From contig JARGFU010000006.1 of assembly GCA_029210625.1 (NCBI GenBank), positions 62,001 through 126,000 on the forward strand: a stretch of 64,000 nucleotides of DNA, read 5' to 3'. Shown in pieces: positions 2,396-11,338 of this stretch (its first letter is position 1; each line of letters begins with the position of its first letter). The notes under the pieces are model-generated. The model saw only the letters and a list, made by a program, of their open reading frames with translations. It did not search any database and was not told the origin of the DNA. The position numbers and the translations under genes were made by a program. This DNA comes from Deltaproteobacteria bacterium (GTDB lineage Bacteria; Myxococcota; Myxococcia; SLRQ01).

Positions 2396-4429
2396 TCAGC
2401 GTCCGCGGTGCGGGCCGCCCCGGGCGTTCTTCACCCGGAAGGCGATCGCCTGGGTCGAGACGGTGCCCGTCCAGGCGTCGCGGCGGGCCTGGCGGCCGTC
2501 GTAGTTGCGGGGGATGTGCAGCGAGGCGCTCACCACCCAGTCGCCCGCGTCGCGCAGGCCGCAGACCTGGCCGAGGTCGATGCGCAGGGGAGCGGCGCGG
2601 CCGCCGGAGAGCTCGATGTAGTCGGCGGCGCTCGGCGGCCCGGCCATCGAGGCGGCGGCGCGGCACATCCGGGAGCGGCCGTACTGGTCGCGCAGGGTGA
2701 AGGTGATCATGAAGGGCTGCGGCAGGGCCACGAAGTAGGGGGTGCCCGTGGGGGCCTCGAGCTGCAGCGTCACCTCGATGGGCTCGTCGCCGTGGGGCGC
2801 CCGGGCCGGGGGCAGCAGCCGCGCCACCGGGGGCAGCGGCCGGGCCGGGCTCGCCGGGTGCTGATCGTAGGAGGGGGGCGGCGGGTTGTAGGGGCGGACC
2901 TCGGCCTGGCGCGGCGCGATGTCGAGGGTGTGGGTCGGCGCCTTGAGGGTGCCGTTCCAGATCGGCACCGAGTGCCCGTTGCGGCGAATGAAGCCGCTGC
3001 CGCCGGCGGGCAGGGTGTAGGAGAGCACCACCTGGTGCCGGCCGGCCGGGAGGTCGGGGCAGAGGTTGCGCAGGTCGATCTTGGTGGAGAGCGCGCCGCC
3101 CGGGCTCACGGTCCGCGAGGCGAGCTGGAGCTGACCGAGGTCGCCCACCTGACGCGGAGCGCAGCGGTAGAAGGCGCCCCGGGGGCCCCAGACCTCGGCG
3201 GAGAGCCAGAGCAGGGTGGGGGGCGTCAGGCCCACGAGGTCGGGCCCGAGGTTGCGCACCCGCAGGTCGAGGAGGATGGGGTCACCCTCCTGGAGGGCGA
3301 CGCCGCGGGGCTGGCTCACCTCGAGGCGGAGGTTGGCCCGCGCCTCGGCCGGCTCGCGGAAGAAGGGCAGGTTGTTGCCCTGGACCCGGCCCTGGAAGGC
3401 CTGGCGGCGCTGCGCGGGCGGCAGGCTCTTGTGGTCGGCCGGGTTCACGGCGTAGGTCGCGCTGACGGTGTAGGCGCCCGGTGCGGAGAGGTCGCAGATC
3501 TGGGCGAGGTCGACCTCGACCTGCCGCGACTGACCGACGGGCAGGGCCTGGAAGGCGCCGGCCTGGTAGAGGCGGGTGAGGGTGCCGCGGCAGCTCACCT
3601 GCTGGCCGTCGGCCCGCTTGATCATCAGGTTCAGGGCCGGGGGCGAGGGCTCGAGCACCAGCACCGAGTCGGGGCCGTGGTTGCGCAGGTCCAGGGTGAG
3701 GACCATCGGCTCGTTGACCCGGCTGCGCCGCTGGCGGGAGAGGTGGAGGGCGAGGTTGGCCCGCGCCTTCGGGGCGTTGACCTCCAGGGTGGTGGACGCC
3801 TGCAGCTCACCGACGTAGGCGTCGTAGCCGTAGCTGTAGCCGTCGAAGGTCAGCGGGATGCGGTACTTCAGCTTCACCTGGTACTTGCCCTCGGGCACGC
3901 CCTGGCAGAAGCCGTCGAGGTAGACGCTCTTGTCCATCATCCCGCCCGCGGGCAGGGAGTAGAAGCGGTCCGGGCGGATCTGCCGGGGGATGTCCACCGG
4001 CTCGCTGCAACGACGCACCTGCCGGGTGCGCACGTTGGTCAGCTCGAAGGTCATGAAGCCCTTGCGCATCTCGTAGAGGATCACCGGGACGGTGTTGTCG
4101 TTGCGCAGGGTCACCCGCACCGGGATGTTCTCCTCCGGGAGGAAGACCGGCTTGGCCGGATCCACGAAGAGCCGCAGGTTCTGGCCGAGCTGGGCCGGAG
4201 GCGGCACCGGCGCGGGCGCCGGGGGCGGCGGCGGCGGGGGGGGAGGCGGGGGCGTGGGCTCCGGCGGCGGAGCCGGGGGCGGCGGCGCCGGGGGTGGCGG
4301 GGTCATCTCCCCCTCGCCGGGGTTCGGGGAGGTGGTCGGGGGCGTCCCCGCGGGCGGGTCCACCACGTAGAAGCAGCCGGCCAGGGCGAGCACGGGTGCC
4401 AGGATCAGGATGGACGAGAGCTTCTTCAT
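2396..4429 (-). CDS. Lipoprotein with proline-rich stalk and four Cys-paired repeats
   Basis: This is a 677-residue lipoprotein: signal peptide with lipobox LAGC (C19), an extreme proline-rich linker (about 44-78), then four Ig-like repeats at roughly 84-216, 225-355, 366-503 and 536-665. Each repeat opens with an N-L-x-L type strand, contains a 'V-x-L-x-L-R-N' like strand, and carries two cysteines 32-34 residues apart: C141/C175, C280/C312, C423/C457, C589/C623. The second cysteine is always in a motif like 'I-D-L-x-x-x-C' and is followed by an 'A-G-x-Y-x-V' strand. One disulfide per repeat is likely. AAGGAGG precedes the ATG. I do not recognise a named family; adhesive or carrier roles are only possibilities. 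Confidence 0.8.
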   Translation of the reverse strand: MKKLSSILILAPVLALAGCFYVVDPPAGTPPTTSPNPGEGEMTPPPPAPPPPAPPPEPTPPPPPPPPPPPAPAPVPPPAQLGQNLRLFVDPAKPVFLPEENIPVRVTLRNDNTVPVILYEMRKGFMTFELTNVRTRQVRRCSEPVDIPRQIRPDRFYSLPAGGMMDKSVYLDGFCQGVPEGKYQVKLKYRIPLTFDGYSYGYDAYVGELQASTTLEVNAPKARANLALHLSRQRRSRVNEPMVLTLDLRNHGPDSVLVLEPSPPALNLMIKRADGQQVSCRGTLTRLYQAGAFQALPVGQSRQVEVDLAQICDLSAPGAYTVSATYAVNPADHKSLPPAQRRQAFQGRVQGNNLPFFREPAEARANLRLEVSQPRGVALQEGDPILLDLRVRNLGPDLVGLTPPTLLWLSAEVWGPRGAFYRCAPRQVGDLGQLQLASRTVSPGGALSTKIDLRNLCPDLPAGRHQVVLSYTLPAGGSGFIRRNGHSVPIWNGTLKAPTHTLDIAPRQAEVRPYNPPPPSYDQHPASPARPLPPVARLLPPARAPHGDEPIEVTLQLEAPTGTPYFVALPQPFMITFTLRDQYGRSRMCRAAASMAGPPSAADYIELSGGRAAPLRIDLGQVCGLRDAGDWVVSASLHIPRNYDGRQARRDAWTGTVSTQAIAFRVKNARGGPHRGR

Positions 4430-4584
4430 GACGGGATTGCCTCCTTGACCGGAGCGGACGTTCGAGGCCCGCCTCCATTCAGCCGGAAGTTTCGGCCCAC
4501 GGCCCTTCCGAGCACAAGGATCCCGGGAGGATGGCCCGGCCGGCTGGGTGAGGCCGGGCCTGGCATGGCCCCCGTGGAAGCGGC

Positions 4585-4590
4585 TACAAT
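4585..4590 (+). promoter_or_regulatory. Candidate -10 box (TACAAT) of the nuclease operon
   Basis: TACAAT lies only 6 nt before the ATG at 4597, and no Shine-Dalgarno is present in that gap. The box is a 5/6 match to the sigma-70 -10 consensus in a very GC-rich background. No convincing -35 is present at the right spacing. If used, transcription would start at or beside the start codon, giving a leaderless mRNA. Confidence 0.4.
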
Positions 4591-4596
4591 CGCCGG

Positions 4597-5760
4597 ATGG
4601 TGCTCCGATCGCACCGGGCAGACCTCCGGACCGGGTCGGCCTGGGAGGGAACGCGGCGAGGCACGCTGATCCTGGCGATCTGCGTGGCCCTCGGGGCCGG
4701 CTGTGCTCTCCGCACCAACTCCCACACGGCGCGCCAGCGCTACGAGAAGAAGGAGCTGCAGTCGCTCCTGACCCGCTTCGAGCAGCCCGGCCTGGTCCTC
4801 GGCGAGTTCGCCCTGGCCTCCAAGCCGGTCATCGACGGGGACACGGTGAAGGTGGCAGGCCTGGAGACCACCCTGCGCCTGCTGGCCATCGACACCGAGG
4901 AGACCTTCAAGAACGAGGACGACCGGCGCTTCGCCGCCGCGGACTGGGAGGGCTACCTCGCCTTCAAGGCCAGCCAGTCGCGCAAGCCCATCAAGGTGGC
5001 CACCCCCATGGGGGAGGAGGCCAAGCGCTTCGCCCAGAAGTTCTTCCAGGGCGTGACCAAGGTCCGCCTCGAGCGGGATCACCCCAAGGATCTGCGCGGC
5101 CGCTTCAACCGCTACCTCGTCTACGTCTTCGCGATGAAGGACGGGGTCTGGGTGAACTACAACATCGCCTGCGTCCGGGCGGGGATGAGCCCCTACTTCA
5201 CCAAGTATGGCTACTCCCGCCGCTTCCACGCCGACTTCCTCCGGGCCCAGGAGCTGGCGCGCTCCGAGGCCCGGGGCATCTGGGACCCCAACACCCAGCA
5301 CTACCCCGACTACGACGCCCGCCTGGAGTGGTGGAACGCCCGGGGTGAGTTCGTCGCCGGCTTCGAGGACGAGGGCCGCGACAAGGAGGACTGGGTGGTC
5401 CTCACCCACTGGGACTCCCTCCTGCGCCTCGAGGAGCTCGAGGGTCGGGACGTGCACGTGCTGGGCACCGTCAGCGAGGTGAAGCTCGGCGACCGGGGCC
5501 CGACCAAGGTGTTGCTGGGGCGGAGGATGTTCTCCGACTTCCCCCTGATCTTCTTCGACAAGGACGTCTTCGGCAGCTCACGCATCGCCGACTACCGGGG
5601 GGAGTTCGTCCACGTGAAGGGGCAGGTCACCCGCTACCGCAACAAGCACAACGGGGAAGAGACCCTCCAGATCCAGGTGAAGTCTCCCTCCCAGATCCTG
5701 CTCTCAGTGCGACCCCCGCCGGCGTCGCCCTCCAACACTGCCACCGCGAGCACCCCATGA
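4597..5760 (+). CDS. Nuclease lipoprotein: SNase domain plus OB-like C-terminal domain
   Basis: A 387-residue lipoprotein with a long basic N-region and lipobox LGAGC (C36). Residues 77-230 form a thermonuclease (SNase) domain: VIDGDT (78-83), the strand containing R94, D99 and E102 in the pattern RLLAIDTEE, and GRFNRYLVYV with an arginine at the R87 position of the staphylococcal enzyme. The three core catalytic residues therefore seem present. Residues about 281-370 look like a second OB-type nucleic-acid-binding domain (G-R-D-V-H-V-L-G-T-V, then Y-R-G-E-F-V-H-V-K-G-Q-V). It is the first gene of a four-gene operon and overlaps the next by ATGA. It probably cleaves DNA or RNA outside the cytoplasm. 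Confidence 0.85.
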   Translation: MVLRSHRADLRTGSAWEGTRRGTLILAICVALGAGCALRTNSHTARQRYEKKELQSLLTRFEQPGLVLGEFALASKPVIDGDTVKVAGLETTLRLLAIDTEETFKNEDDRRFAAADWEGYLAFKASQSRKPIKVATPMGEEAKRFAQKFFQGVTKVRLERDHPKDLRGRFNRYLVYVFAMKDGVWVNYNIACVRAGMSPYFTKYGYSRRFHADFLRAQELARSEARGIWDPNTQHYPDYDARLEWWNARGEFVAGFEDEGRDKEDWVVLTHWDSLLRLEELEGRDVHVLGTVSEVKLGDRGPTKVLLGRRMFSDFPLIFFDKDVFGSSRIADYRGEFVHVKGQVTRYRNKHNGEETLQIQVKSPSQILLSVRPPPASPSNTATASTP

Positions 5761-7451
5761 ACCACCTCTATCGTCTGTCCCTGGCGGCCGCCCTCGTCGG
5801 CGCGCTCCTCTCGACCAGCTGCGGCCCGGGTGGGGGCAACAACGACCAGGGCTGCCGGGCCGACCTCCTGGTGGGAGACCTCGTCATCACCGAGGTCATG
5901 GCGAACCCCGACAGCACCGACACCGGGCGCGAGTGGTTCGAGATCTTCGTCAACACGACCGCCGCCGTGGACCTGACCGGGCTGCGCCTGGAGGTGAGCC
6001 GGGCGGACGGCACCGGCGAGGAGCAGCACACGGTCGCCGGCCTCACGGTGGACCCCTCCGACTACATCACCTTCGGCTCCTTCCTCGAGCCGGTCCCGCA
6101 GTGGCTCGACTACTCCTACGGCACCAACCTCGGCAGTCTGCGCAACTCGGACGGCCGGGTGGCCGTGATCTGCGATGACGTCGTGGTGGACGAGGTCGTC
6201 TACGGCAGCACCTCCGACGGCAAGGCGCTGGTCTTCACCGGCGCACTCGCGCCGGACTACTCGGCCAACGACGCCGCCGAGAACTGGTGCAACGCCAGCG
6301 AGGAGTACGAGACGGGCTCGATGGGCTCGCCGGGGCAGGCGAACGAGCACTGCGCCGGAGGGCCGAACCCCACCGAGTGCGACGACGCCGGTGTGCGCCG
6401 CACCCTCGTGAACCCCCTGCCCGGCGATCTCGTCATCACCGAGCTGATGCCCAACCCCGCGGCGGCCGACGACGCCACCGCGGAGTGGTTCGAGGTCTAC
6501 GTCGGGCGCGACCTCGACCTCAACGGGGTCGAGCTGGGCGCCGACCCGGGCAACCCCCGGGTGACCCTCTCCGGCACCGACTGCCTCTCCGTGACGGCCG
6601 GCAGCTACGTGGTCTTCGCCCGCACCGCCGACCCGGCCACCAACGGCGGCCTCGACGCGGTCGCCGGGACCTTCCCGATGGGGATGGTCAACGGCGGCGG
6701 CTCGATCTTCGTGGGCTTCGAGGGCGCGGTCCTCGACGCCGTGACCTGGACCGGCTCGGGCACCGGCATCTCGGTCTCGCTCGATCCCGCCTCCCAGGAT
6801 CCCACCTCGAACGACGACCCCACCAAGTGGTGCGCGGGCACCGGGACCTACGGCCTGGGCGACACCGGCACCCCGGGCGCCGCGAACGCGTCCTGCCCCC
6901 TGGTGCCCCCGCCGGGCTCCTGCGTCGAGGGCGGCACCACCATCCGCGCCATCGATCCGCCGGGGGCGGGTGACCTGCAGCTCACCGAGCTGATGGCGAA
7001 CCCCGCCTCGGTGGACGACGCGCTCGGGGAGTGGTTCGAGGTCCGGGTGGGCCGCGATCTGGACCTCAACGGGCTCGAGGTCGGTACCGACACCGTCGGC
7101 GGCGCGGTCCGCTTCACCCTGAACGACACCGCCTGCCTGCGGGCCACCGCCGGCAGCCACATCGTCATCGCCCGGGAGACCGACGGCGGAGTGAACGGCG
7201 GCCTGCCCTCGGTGCTGGCCACCTTCGACTTCGCCCTGGTGAACACCAACTCGGGCCTCTTCGTCGGGCACGGCGGCACCCTCATCGACTCGATGACCTA
7301 CGCCTCGACCTCCTCGGGGGCCACCCTCTCCCGGGACCCGGCCCTGGCGACCCTCTGGTGCGATCTGGCGGCCTTCACCACCCCGGCGGCTCCCACCTAC
7401 GGTCTGGGAGACAAGGGCTCCCCCGCGGCGGTCAACCCCTCCTGCCAATGA
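5757..7451 (+). CDS. Lipoprotein with three lamin-tail (LTD) domains
   Basis: The 564-residue product has a lipobox at C22 and three tandem lamin-tail-domain repeats beginning near residues 40, 222 and 404. Each starts with a GDLVITE(V/L)MANP-like strand, followed by EWFEV-x-V, and closes with a W-C...GDxGxPGxxN...C segment. Bacterial LTDs are immunoglobulin-like modules found on secreted or membrane-tethered proteins and often accompany nucleases and other hydrolases. No catalytic domain is visible, so a binding or scaffolding role is likely. Its ATG overlaps the upstream nuclease stop (ATGA), and its stop overlaps the next start (ATGA), so translation is probably coupled. Confidence 0.88.
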   Translation: MNHLYRLSLAAALVGALLSTSCGPGGGNNDQGCRADLLVGDLVITEVMANPDSTDTGREWFEIFVNTTAAVDLTGLRLEVSRADGTGEEQHTVAGLTVDPSDYITFGSFLEPVPQWLDYSYGTNLGSLRNSDGRVAVICDDVVVDEVVYGSTSDGKALVFTGALAPDYSANDAAENWCNASEEYETGSMGSPGQANEHCAGGPNPTECDDAGVRRTLVNPLPGDLVITELMPNPAAADDATAEWFEVYVGRDLDLNGVELGADPGNPRVTLSGTDCLSVTAGSYVVFARTADPATNGGLDAVAGTFPMGMVNGGGSIFVGFEGAVLDAVTWTGSGTGISVSLDPASQDPTSNDDPTKWCAGTGTYGLGDTGTPGAANASCPLVPPPGSCVEGGTTIRAIDPPGAGDLQLTELMANPASVDDALGEWFEVRVGRDLDLNGLEVGTDTVGGAVRFTLNDTACLRATAGSHIVIARETDGGVNGGLPSVLATFDFALVNTNSGLFVGHGGTLIDSMTYASTSSGATLSRDPALATLWCDLAAFTTPAAPTYGLGDKGSPAAVNPSCQ

Positions 7452-7954
7452 GCCGGACGCCCGCCGCCGGCCTGCGGGTCTGCTGCCTCCTGCTCCTCGC
7501 CACGCCCCTCCTCCTGCTGGGGGGCGGTTGCGGGGAGAAGTGCGGCCCGAAGAAGGCGGTGGTCACCGAGGTGGTCGACGGTGACACCGTTCACCTCGAC
7601 ACCGGCGACACGGTGCGGCTCCTGATGGTGAACACCCCCGAGATCACCTCGGGGAAGAACGAGTGCTACGGCGAGGAGGCTCGCCGCTTCACCACCGATC
7701 TGGTCGAGGGCAAGGAGGTCCGCCTCGAGTACGAGGACGAGTGCACCGACCGCTTCCAGCGCCTGCTGGCCTATGTCTCCATCGACGGGCGGGAGCTCAA
7801 CGCCCTGCTGGTGGAGCGGGGCTACGCCTGCGCCTACTACGTGCCCCCGAGCGGCGAGGATCGTCTCGCCGAGTTCGAGGAGCTCGAGCTCGACGCCCGG
7901 GCCGCCAGCCGCGGCCTCTGGGGTAGCTGCCAGGAGATCACATGTCAGGACTGA
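7448..7954 (+). CDS. Second SNase-family nuclease lipoprotein
   Basis: A compact 168-residue lipoprotein (lipobox cysteine C28) made of a single thermonuclease domain. Visible motifs are VVDGDT (42-47), R57, the segment VNTPE (61-65) and R105 in DRFQRLLAY. Compared with staphylococcal nuclease, the arginines and the glutamate are kept, but the calcium-binding aspartate of the V-D-T-P-E motif is asparagine (N62). Cysteines at 32, 73, 99, 128, 161 and 166 suggest disulfides in an oxidising compartment. It overlaps the LTD gene by 4 nt and the HhH-barrel gene by 13 nt. It is much shorter than the operon's first nuclease and lacks the extra OB-like domain. Confidence 0.87.
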   Translation: MSRTPAAGLRVCCLLLLATPLLLLGGGCGEKCGPKKAVVTEVVDGDTVHLDTGDTVRLLMVNTPEITSGKNECYGEEARRFTTDLVEGKEVRLEYEDECTDRFQRLLAYVSIDGRELNALLVERGYACAYYVPPSGEDRLAEFEELELDARAASRGLWGSCQEITCQD

Positions 7955-10155
7955 GACGGCGGGCAGCGCTCCCCCTCTTCCTCGCCGCCGCGCTCGCGAG
8001 CTCGCCGGCGCTCGCGCGGGAGTACGACGCCTTCGTCGAGATCGAGGACGAGGAGGACATCTACGACCTCTACGACGACGGCACCATCGACGAGGAGGGC
8101 CGCGACACCCTCCTCGAGCTCCTCGAGAGCGGGGTGAGCCTCAACACCGCCTCCCGCGACCGGCTCTACGAACTGCCCAACCTCACCCTGCCGGTGGTGG
8201 ACGCGCTGCTCACCTACCGCCAGGAGGCCGGGAGCCTCGACAACCCCGCGGCCCTGGTGGGCGCGGGGCTGCTCACCGAGCGCGAGCTCTTCGCCCTGGC
8301 CCCCTTCCTGATCGTCTCCCAGCGCGAGGGGGCCGCCTTCGGCACCAAGGCCCGGGTGCGCTACGACACCTTGCTGGTGGCGGGCGAGAACCGGGTCCCG
8401 GGGATGGCGCTGCGGGCCAACGCCGAGGCCCTGGGGGGCTTCCGCACCGGCCTCGCCACGCTCCTCACCCGCGATCGCATCGGGCGGGTGACCTACGACG
8501 GAAGCCGCGACACCCCCACCCGCCGGGCCCTCACCGCCGCCGCGCCGGTGCCCCGGCTGCAGCTCGCCAAGGCCTTCGCCGAGTGGCGGGAGGAGGACTA
8601 CGGGGTCATCGCCGGCACCTACAAGATCGGCTTCGGGCAGCGCCTGACCTTCGACAACACCGGCGACTACGCCCCCAACGGCTGGGAGAAGGACGACACC
8701 CTCACCCGGGGCGCCTCGCTGAAGACCGCCTGCAAGGAGAGCACGGGCACCACCGAGTCGCCGCTCTGCGACTACGGGAGCGACCTGCGGATCTCGCCCG
8801 ACTACCGGTGGACCCCGCGGCTGCTGGGCGTCGCCGGAGGGCACCGTCGAATCGACCTCGGCATGGGGCACCTCCAGGCCTTCGGCTTCGGCTCCTTCCA
8901 GCGGCGTTCCATCTACCAGTATGAGGTGCTCGACCGCAGCATCTGCTCCATCGACGACGAGGCGGCGGACAACTGCAACCTCTCCGACGACTTCAACGTC
9001 TACGTCGACATCGACAACCCGTCGGCCACCGCACCGGAGTTCAAGTACACGACCCTCACGGGCCTCTACGACGAGCTGGTCGTGGGCGGGAACGTCGCCT
9101 ACTGGTTCGGCGAGCGGGCCCGGATCGGCCTCACCGGCTATGGGGCGGCGCCCTTCTGGCGGATCCCCGAGATGGACCTGGACTTCCGGCGGTCCTCTCG
9201 CTGGCCCTTCGGCGGCCCCTGGGGGGCGGTGGGCCTCAACGGGACGGTCGGCTTCGCCTGGTGGGATCTGGGCATGGAGGTCGCGCGCACCATCGACTCG
9301 ATGAGCCTGGGGGGCGGCGACTTCGGCGCCATCGTGCGGGGCCTGGGGAGCTGGAAGAAGCGGGAGCTGGAGCTGACCCTGCGCTACTACGGTCCCGACT
9401 TCCACAACCCCTACGCCCGGCCCATCTCGGCGGCCGACGAGCGGGACGGCGTCCGGGCCCGGGACGAGGCCGGCGCCCGCGTGCGCTACGCGGGGGAGGT
9501 CCTCCGGGACCTGGAGCTGCGCGGCACCGCCGACCTCTGGACGACCGTCTCCACCGGGGTCGTCAACACCCGGAACGAGGTGCGGGCGACCTATCGCCTC
9601 ACCGACGCGATCCGCCTCTCGGCGTGGGGCCTCTTCCACGACAAGAACCTCGCCGTGGGGGGGCGGCAGCAGTGCTTCGGGACCGACACCTTCGAGGACG
9701 CCGAGGGCACCGACATCGGTGAGATCGAGATCATCGAGGGCTGCGCCGGCATGAAGCTCCAGGCCACGGGGCAGGTGCGCTACGAGCCCTTCAAGAACAC
9801 GGCGATCACCCTGCAGTACCGCAACTCCTGGCTCGACGAGGGCAGCGCCTCGGGGCGACTCTTCGACGACCGCTTCCGGCAGGATCGCTCCTTCTGGCTG
9901 ACCCTGATGGTCAAGCCGATCCCCGAGCTCCGGATCCGCGGGCGCCTGCGCTACCTCATGGAGGACGTGGCCTACGCGGACCACCTCGAGAGCTGGCTGT
10001 GGACCTACCTCGAGGCCACCTACAGCCTGCAGAAGCGCTTCAAGTTCCGGCTGCGCTACGACCTGGTGAGCTGGCTGGACCAGCGGGACAGCACGCGGGA
10101 TCGGATCCCGAACCCCGAGCACTGGTTCTGGTTCTCCGCCGAGGCCAAGTTCTAG
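7942..10155 (+). CDS. Helix-hairpin-helix protein with outer-membrane barrel-like body
   Basis: This 737-residue protein has a signal peptide (cleavage likely after ALA, residue 25), an acidic stretch (30-52), and a ComEA-like helix-hairpin-helix DNA-binding segment around 64-125, including LNTASRDRLYELPN (68-80). From about 135 to the end it is rich in alternating aromatic/polar strands, ending in WFWFSAEAKF with a terminal Phe, as in outer-membrane beta-barrels. The start has a good AGGAG and lies inside the preceding nuclease gene (13-nt overlap). The combination suggests an outer-membrane protein that binds DNA near the periplasmic face. I know of no characterised member; function is inference from domains and operon. 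Confidence 0.78.
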   Translation: MSGLRRRAALPLFLAAALASSPALAREYDAFVEIEDEEDIYDLYDDGTIDEEGRDTLLELLESGVSLNTASRDRLYELPNLTLPVVDALLTYRQEAGSLDNPAALVGAGLLTERELFALAPFLIVSQREGAAFGTKARVRYDTLLVAGENRVPGMALRANAEALGGFRTGLATLLTRDRIGRVTYDGSRDTPTRRALTAAAPVPRLQLAKAFAEWREEDYGVIAGTYKIGFGQRLTFDNTGDYAPNGWEKDDTLTRGASLKTACKESTGTTESPLCDYGSDLRISPDYRWTPRLLGVAGGHRRIDLGMGHLQAFGFGSFQRRSIYQYEVLDRSICSIDDEAADNCNLSDDFNVYVDIDNPSATAPEFKYTTLTGLYDELVVGGNVAYWFGERARIGLTGYGAAPFWRIPEMDLDFRRSSRWPFGGPWGAVGLNGTVGFAWWDLGMEVARTIDSMSLGGGDFGAIVRGLGSWKKRELELTLRYYGPDFHNPYARPISAADERDGVRARDEAGARVRYAGEVLRDLELRGTADLWTTVSTGVVNTRNEVRATYRLTDAIRLSAWGLFHDKNLAVGGRQQCFGTDTFEDAEGTDIGEIEIIEGCAGMKLQATGQVRYEPFKNTAITLQYRNSWLDEGSASGRLFDDRFRQDRSFWLTLMVKPIPELRIRGRLRYLMEDVAYADHLESWLWTYLEATYSLQKRFKFRLRYDLVSWLDQRDSTRDRIPNPEHWFWFSAEAKF

Positions 10156-10471: not shown

Positions 10472-11338
10472 CTAGCGGCAGGCGCCGCCCGCGCAGGTGG
10501 TGTTGCAGGTCGAGCCCGCGGCGCAGCGGCGCTGGCACTTGCCGCCGGAGCAGTTGAAGTTGCAGGTGGCGCCGCGGTCGCAGAGCTGCTGGCAGTTGCC
10601 GCCCTGGCAATCGGAGGTGCAGACGGAGCCGGCGCGGCAGTGGTGGCGGCAGCCGCCGGCGGTGCAGGAGAGGGTGCAGCTCTGGCCGGTCGCGCAGGTC
10701 GCGCCGCCGTTGCGCACCAGGGCGGCTCCGCCTCCGGCCGCGGGCGCGGGAGCGGGCGCGGGGGCCGCGCCGCCGCCGCCGGTGGCGGTCCGGCGACCCC
10801 CCAGCATCGGCAGGCGGATGCCGCCGCGGTTCAGGTTCACGACCCCGCCGGTGGTGCCGCCGGTGTTCGCCGGGGGCGCGTTGGTGGTCGGGGGAGGCGG
10901 GGGCTGGTTGGTGGTCGGCGGGGGCGGCGGCTGGTTGCCGGCCACGGCCACCTGGCCGTCCTTGCCCTGCACGTTCACGCCCTGGTCGTTGACCGTGACG
11001 GTGCCCTCGGCGCCCTTGGCGACGACACCCTTCTCGCCCACGGCGACGGTGCCCTCCTTGCCCTTCACGACGACGCCCTTGTTGCCGACGGCGACGGTGC
11101 CCTCGGCGCCCTGGACGTTCACGCCGCCCGCGCCCACCGTGATCGTCCCGTCCTGGCCCACCGAGACGCCGGTGTCGCTGCCGATCACGATCTTCGAGCC
11201 ACCGGACTCGATGACCGTCCCCTCGGCGGTCTTGGTGATGACGGTGGTCTCCCCCTGGGGAGCGTCGGGCTCCTGGGGGCAGCCGGCGGCGAGGAGGAGC
11301 GGGGTGGCGAAGAGGGCCACGAAGAGGGCGTTTCTCAT
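10472..11338 (-). CDS. Lipoprotein with 16-residue repeats and Cys-rich 19-residue repeats
   Basis: A 288-residue lipoprotein (lipobox LAAGC, C20). Residues 64-127 are four tandem 16-residue repeats of the form GTVAVGxKGVVVKGxE with a partial fifth, likely to fold as a beta-solenoid. A Pro/Asn/Thr linker follows (136-160). The C-terminus (215-288) holds sixteen cysteines in four 19-residue units with the exact spacing C-x5-C-x3-C-x4-C-x3. The ATG at 11338 is preceded by GGGAGA; the upstream in-frame extension looks non-coding. I do not recognise the family, though similar Cys-rich tails occur in myxobacterial surface proteins. Such density of cysteines suggests a disulfide-rich or metal-binding extracytoplasmic tail. 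Confidence 0.78.
   Translation of the reverse strand: MRNALFVALFATPLLLAAGCPQEPDAPQGETTVITKTAEGTVIESGGSKIVIGSDTGVSVGQDGTITVGAGGVNVQGAEGTVAVGNKGVVVKGKEGTVAVGEKGVVAKGAEGTVTVNDQGVNVQGKDGQVAVAGNQPPPPPTTNQPPPPPTTNAPPANTGGTTGGVVNLNRGGIRLPMLGGRRTATGGGGAAPAPAPAPAAGGGAALVRNGGATCATGQSCTLSCTAGGCRHHCRAGSVCTSDCQGGNCQQLCDRGATCNFNCSGGKCQRRCAAGSTCNTTCAGGACR

Follow-up and report, generated by a model that had tools for sequence, protein, structure and literature searches.

Analysis of a 64,000-nucleotide stretch of genomic DNA from a member of the Myxococcota (the window), supported by comparison with other genomes of the phylum, showed that two staphylococcal-type nucleases (SNase1 and SNase2), a lipoprotein with lamin-tail-domain (LTD) repeats, and an HhH domain joined to a predicted outer-membrane barrel are encoded in a tightly coupled cluster of four genes; the conserved set is probably one undescribed machine that handles nucleic acids at the cell surface. 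No description of the barrel family, of the barrel-LTD pairing, or of the whole cluster was found in the open-access literature searched. All of the domains are known, and a surface nuclease combined with an outer-membrane pore is a known kind of system in outline.

Gene coupling and conservation of the cluster

The genes lie on the plus strand in the order SNase1 (positions 4597 to 5760; 387 amino acids), LTD lipoprotein (5757 to 7451; 564 amino acids), SNase2 (7448 to 7954; 168 amino acids), and HhH-barrel (7942 to 10155; 737 amino acids); each starts with ATG, and the stop codon is TGA in the first three and TAG in the last. The initial annotation had proposed that these genes, overlapping by 4 nt (SNase1/LTD, ATGA), 4 nt (LTD/SNase2, ATGA), and 13 nt (SNase2/barrel), are made as one unit; its coordinates were exact, and a codon-usage gene caller recovered the identical four genes in 4597 to 10155. 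Minus-strand genes border the cluster on either side (2396 to 4429 and 10472 to 11338), and it is therefore a bounded four-gene unit. The operon promoter would be expected in the divergent intergenic region (4430 to 4596, unstranded), where a scan for sigma-70 promoters, which is uninformative for a high-GC myxobacterium, gave no sigma-70-like match. A signal peptide or lipobox-like cysteine is present in all four window proteins, in agreement with the export signals first proposed; the window lipoboxes (LGAGC, LSTSC, and LGGGC) are of a relaxed type. With a relaxed motif and automatically chosen starts, lipobox-like cysteines were counted in 43/54 SNase1, 46/55 SNase2, 56/62 LTD, 26/30 small-LTD (see below), and 9/79 barrel homologs; the strict Escherichia coli lipobox was matched by a minority of homologs only. 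From these motifs we infer lipid anchoring of both nucleases and the LTD protein. A single transcription unit whose products are directed to the envelope is supported.

Both bordering genes encode lipoprotein-like proteins that gave no Pfam match. The divergent one (2396 to 4429, minus strand; 677 amino acids) contains repeated segments and, toward its N terminus, a stretch rich in proline, and the convergent one (10472 to 11338, minus strand; 288 amino acids) has GTVxVGxxGVxVKG-type repeats and a cysteine-rich C terminus.

The barrel was found in 35 of 58 relatives, and among 20 neighborhoods the Myxococcaceae type, barrel-[SNase1]-LTD-SNase2, has the gene set of the window with the barrel at the front. 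Searching genome contigs with the single protein P0004 gave no match, and an alignment used as the query gave 115 matches, the best 80 of which were used as loci. Almost all of these 80 are labeled Myxococcota or Deltaproteobacteria, and they include Nannocystis, Enhygromyxa, Paraliomyxa, Kofleriaceae, Archangium, Corallococcus, and Myxococcus. Among them, 27 loci have the order small-LTD-SNase1-LTD-SNase2-barrel or a close variant, 12 have barrel-SNase1-LTD-SNase2, 11 have SNase1-LTD-barrel, 7 (cut or short upstream) have LTD-SNase2-barrel, and 5 have barrel-LTD-SNase2. SNase1 is absent in some lineages (Myxococcus and Corallococcus type) and SNase2 in others; LTD-SNase2-barrel or LTD-barrel is again the arrangement in more remote Myxococcota families, and a divergent locus from the window's own family (G001) has barrel-LTD with a 4-nt overlap. 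The initial annotation had named a gene order not conserved in related genomes as grounds for abandoning its proposal; the order proved to be conserved in related genomes and the cluster to occur phylum-wide, with an LTD gene near the barrel, usually adjoining or one to two cluster genes away, in 70 of the 71 evaluable loci among the best 80 of 115. Nine loci lacking LTD and cut by contig ends (L087, L118, L119, L131, L143, L148, L157, L163, and L164) were left out of the 71, while L117 and L134, which contain runs of N, keep an LTD fragment; the one real exception is L147, with SNase2-barrel and no LTD.

The spacing is equally close outside the window: median gaps are 20 nt for SNase1-LTD (n = 53), 1 nt for LTD-SNase2 (n = 52), 3 nt for SNase2-barrel (n = 37), and -10 nt for LTD-barrel (n = 13). 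Since this coupling recurs across the phylum, the overlap in the window is not due to chance. In many Myxococcaceae genomes (L041, L043, L046, and L049 to L052), the LTD-SNase2 overlap is exactly 13 nt, the size of the SNase2-barrel overlap in the window. Flanking genes vary between lineages, whereas the core is constant; no linked nucleotide transporter or nucleotidase, no defense genes, and no chaperone or pilins were found among the recurrent neighbors. In about 27 loci among L085 to L162 (best 80 of 115; for example, L085:3436-4068 and L099:4436-5080), SNase1 is preceded by an additional gene that usually overlaps it and encodes a single-LTD lipoprotein of about 200 amino acids; no such gene lies beside the window cluster.

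A genuine barrel is present in about 104 of 195 genomes of the phylum, a count that leaves out 13 genomes with weak matches (E values of 1e-6 to 1e-3) over the HhH stretch; one of these has an additional 96-amino-acid C-terminal frame, which was not counted as a barrel. The SNase1 profile matched 37 of the 195 genomes at an E value of ≤1e-20, and the barrel is present in every one of these 37; owing to the shared ancestry of the genomes, the counts are not independent. In the deep lineages G192 to G194, SNase1 and the barrel are on separate contigs. In a tree of 89 barrels, barrel-last and barrel-first loci each require two label changes (mean after shuffling, 22). Barrel-last is the majority order, and the Myxococcaceae have the barrel first; the window is placed provisionally among the barrel-last loci, at the end of a long branch. 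Because barrel-last loci include early branches, this order is likely the older one, as judged from a tree that was rooted at the midpoint only.

Predicted properties of the encoded proteins

The domain content first proposed (two SNases, a triple LTD protein, and an HhH domain with a barrel) was borne out by Pfam, by repeats visible in the translation, and by the modeled barrel, with the HhH match staying below threshold. SNase1 and SNase2 match the Pfam SNase family (PF00565) at 4.7e-9 (37.1 bits) and 3e-21 (76.3 bits), respectively, against a cutoff of 21. The catalytic positions D21, R35, D40, E43, and R87 (staphylococcal nuclease numbering) are present in the window SNase1 and invariant in 53 of 53 aligned proteins; in SNase2, D21, R35, E43, and R87 are kept in 55 of 55 homologs, and position 40 is Asp in 52 and Asn in 3, including the window protein, in which Ca2+ binding may be weakened. 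This conservation indicates that the nuclease site has been maintained by selection in SNase1 and SNase2 alike. The lipoprotein-like SNase1 has its SNase domain at residues ~65 to 232 and a C-terminal OB-fold-like region at ~262 to 370; its AlphaFold model (pLDDT 87) shows the SNase domain and a C-terminal beta domain, and SNase structures were its top PDB matches. The C-terminal part alone gave no match in a PDB sequence search, and the OB-fold assignment comes from Pfam matches of homologs (PF01336 in 15/39, best 3.4e-5; PF12869 in 9/39, best 9.5e-7). On this evidence, the putative OB-fold is a better candidate for nucleic-acid binding than either the HhH domain or the LTD. The window's genome also encodes a SNase1 paralog outside the cluster (G000:C16:21771-22745; L177:7772-8746, minus strand; 324 amino acids; E value of 1.5e-99 to the SNase1 profile), directly followed by an 854-amino-acid lipoprotein-like protein.

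The LTD lipoprotein matches Pfam LTD (PF00932) at 1.4e-16 (61.2 bits; cutoff, 34.3), and its repeats start at residues ~40, ~223, and ~406; two stretches pass Pfam, and the third (~406 to 520) is visible in the translation. The LTD is an Ig-like fold. Within the best 80 of 115 loci, the LTD protein is the barrel's most constant partner. There are 17 LTD matches in the window's genome, so that an LTD alone proves nothing and it is the constant place beside the barrel that is informative. Many of the genomic matches are in large open reading frames (contigs C11, C13, and others of G000), five of them on C13 within ~22 kb (156101 to 177882). LTD proteins of the cluster are very acidic (median pI, 4.07), and direct DNA binding is therefore not indicated; the binding scaffold of the initial annotation is more likely a protein scaffold.

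The HhH-barrel has a Sec signal, an HhH domain at residues 37 to 122, and a predicted 24-strand outer-membrane barrel at 136 to 736. The AlphaFold model, built with 44 homologs (pLDDT 87.0; pTM 0.87), is helical over 37 to 122 and then has 24 strands of 10 to 18 residues; given the even strand number, both barrel ends would lie in the periplasm. Foldseek placed the FimD translocation pore first (E value of 3e-11). With usher TM-scores of 0.33 to 0.38 to the query, this is a likeness of architecture and not a family assignment; other large barrels score nearly as high, and the listed PDB neighbors are outer-membrane barrels or complexes containing them. Pfam searches of the barrel gave no TonB-receptor family and no usher or chaperone family. 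Neither the barrel nor the LTD protein matched plasmids, and the barrel did not match viral contigs; nothing thus points to an origin from mobile elements or phages. A homologous HhH-barrel may exist in Bacteroidota, and no argument here draws on it.

Sequence-profile searches with the barrel protein matched HhH chains only, and these in the N-terminal part, for example, ComEA over ~62 residues (8dss, 2e-7); the HHH_3 match of this part (2e-4, 21.8 bits) is under the Pfam curated cutoff of 27. In the 44 homologs the first hairpin reads LP-N-L-T and not LP-G-h-G (Gly82 in 0/44; Gly80 in 11/44). The domain is also acidic, its net charge averaging -3.6 over residues 62 to 126 and -13.8 over 26 to 126. 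The separate ComEA-like protein of the same genome (contig C1), taken as a control, has LPGIG and VKGIG hairpins and a net charge of +7. The loss of Gly-x-Gly and the acidic charge, set against this control, speak against the HhH domain as a DNA binder, and the "DNA-binding barrel" of the initial annotation was dropped.

Possible functions of the cluster

Our combined results are consistent, at about even confidence, with a nuclease complex at the cell surface that is built on a pore-forming barrel and serves nucleic-acid feeding. The proteins would face the cell surface and associate in a physical complex, in which the 24-strand barrel and its small periplasmic HhH-derived domain would form the pore and the acidic LTD lipoprotein of Ig-like repeats would dock on the barrel as a scaffold; the two lipid-anchored nucleases would cut DNA or RNA at the barrel, with the SNase1 OB-fold binding the substrate. 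The most likely job would be the use of nucleic acids from lysed or killed neighbors, cut at the envelope, as a food source, and short cleavage products would probably enter the periplasm through the barrel. The degradation of extracellular DNA suggested in the initial annotation fits this scheme; its alternative, uptake of whole DNA, found no specific support. The relaxed lipoboxes, the D40N exchange in the window SNase2, the acidic LTD proteins and HhH domain, and the lack of any recurrently linked nucleotide transporter or nucleotidase in the neighbor survey speak against this reading. As the barrel and LTD protein are the most constant pair and some lineages have no SNase1 or no SNase2, the cluster may have a core function other than nuclease activity. 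Somewhat more tentatively, we propose that the barrel represents a new family of outer-membrane translocons in the Myxococcota, a 24-strand barrel for LTD lipoproteins and their nucleases that would move nucleic acid, or the nucleases themselves, through the outer membrane without a secretin, pilus, or TonB plug.

Other readings of the same set were considered. Ushers are 24-strand barrels that pass Ig-fold subunits, and the barrel might likewise be an export or display port that brings the LTD and nuclease lipoproteins to the cell exterior or anchors them there, with no transport of nucleic acid. The ranking of FimD/PapC translocation pores as the best structural neighbors and the constant partnership with an Ig-like LTD protein favor such a port; it appears unlikely given the low usher TM-scores, the nearly equal scores of other large barrels, the lack of usher or chaperone domains by Pfam, and the plug domain that ushers have inside the barrel, none being identified in the window barrel. 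We regard as quite unlikely a role in an envelope barrier or in matrix remodeling, in which the nucleases would destroy phage genomes or the extracellular DNA of biofilms or fruiting bodies and the barrel would be an anchor: SNases that are predicted to lie in the envelope and that have kept their active sites would suit it, and the SNase domains match the PADLOC candidate model "SNc+LTD," but that match is confined to the generic SNase part, defense genes do not recur among the neighbors, and the phylum-wide, tree-like retention is unlike that of patchy defense systems.

Natural transformation, with double-stranded DNA passing the barrel, the HhH domain pulling it in like ComEA, and the nucleases trimming it, is highly improbable. 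The alignment of the HhH region with ComEA, the presence of ComEC in the window's genome, and the dependence of Riemerella transformation on an HhH protein and on a barrel that is not a secretin (PMC8459023) are in its favor; however, Gly-x-Gly is missing from the acidic hairpins, contig C1 encodes a canonical ComEA-like protein apart from the barrel, and the Riemerella HhH protein, described as periplasmic with three HhH (PMC8459023), is not this barrel.

Relation to known systems

How predatory and soil Myxococcota handle DNA and RNA released by prey was not explained in the literature searched, in which we also found no open-access paper pairing LTD with Myxococcus. With nucleases, an LTD scaffold, and a large pore of the outer membrane united in one phylum-wide operon, this question becomes directly testable; the cluster would, in addition, place barrel-paired LTD repeats in a functional context and add a new family of outer-membrane proteins that form large pores and have no TonB plug.

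A close combination of domains is in ExeM of Shewanella oneidensis, an envelope-associated DNA-degrading enzyme whose LTD, OB-like, and nuclease domains are all required for full activity (PMC6085458). ExeM is a single polypeptide with an unrelated nuclease fold, EEP, found in the cytoplasmic membrane fraction and with no known barrel partner, whereas the window cluster has separate genes and SNase domains. Secreted DNases are known to pair nuclease domains with an LTD. An LTD-bearing nuclease protein also occurs in DNA-degradation loci of bacteria that feed on extracellular DNA (PMC8289736), and halophile DNases bear either LTD or HhH domains (PMC4486849). PADLOC C3a212 ("SNc+LTD") likewise combines SNase and LTD, and both window SNases match its SNase half; it is by name a fusion and a candidate-only model, whereas in the window the two kinds of domain belong to different lipoproteins and are accompanied by a barrel. 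The HhH region can be aligned with ComEA/HHH_3 over ~62 residues but differs in its lost hairpin Gly, its acidity, and its fusion to an outer-membrane barrel. The likeness to chaperone-usher systems lies in the FimD/PapC barrels of 24 strands, the best structural neighbors; the TM-scores are low, however, and usher domains, chaperone, and pilins are lacking at the cluster.

A similar outline is seen in SusCD-type loci for nutrient uptake in Bacteroidota, where a single operon joins the genes for an outer-membrane barrel, lipoproteins, and enzymes of degradation. SusC, as a TonB-dependent transporter, has 22 strands and an N-terminal plug, whereas the window barrel has a predicted 24 strands, a helical HhH N terminus, and no plug that was found; with LTD in place of SusD, the window cluster is not a member of this group. 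Lipoprotein SNases of Mycoplasma (e.g., Mhp379) are membrane anchored, share an operon with an ABC transporter, and probably supply nucleotide import; they differ in lacking LTD, in belonging to single-membrane cells, and in accompanying an ABC transporter instead of an outer-membrane barrel.
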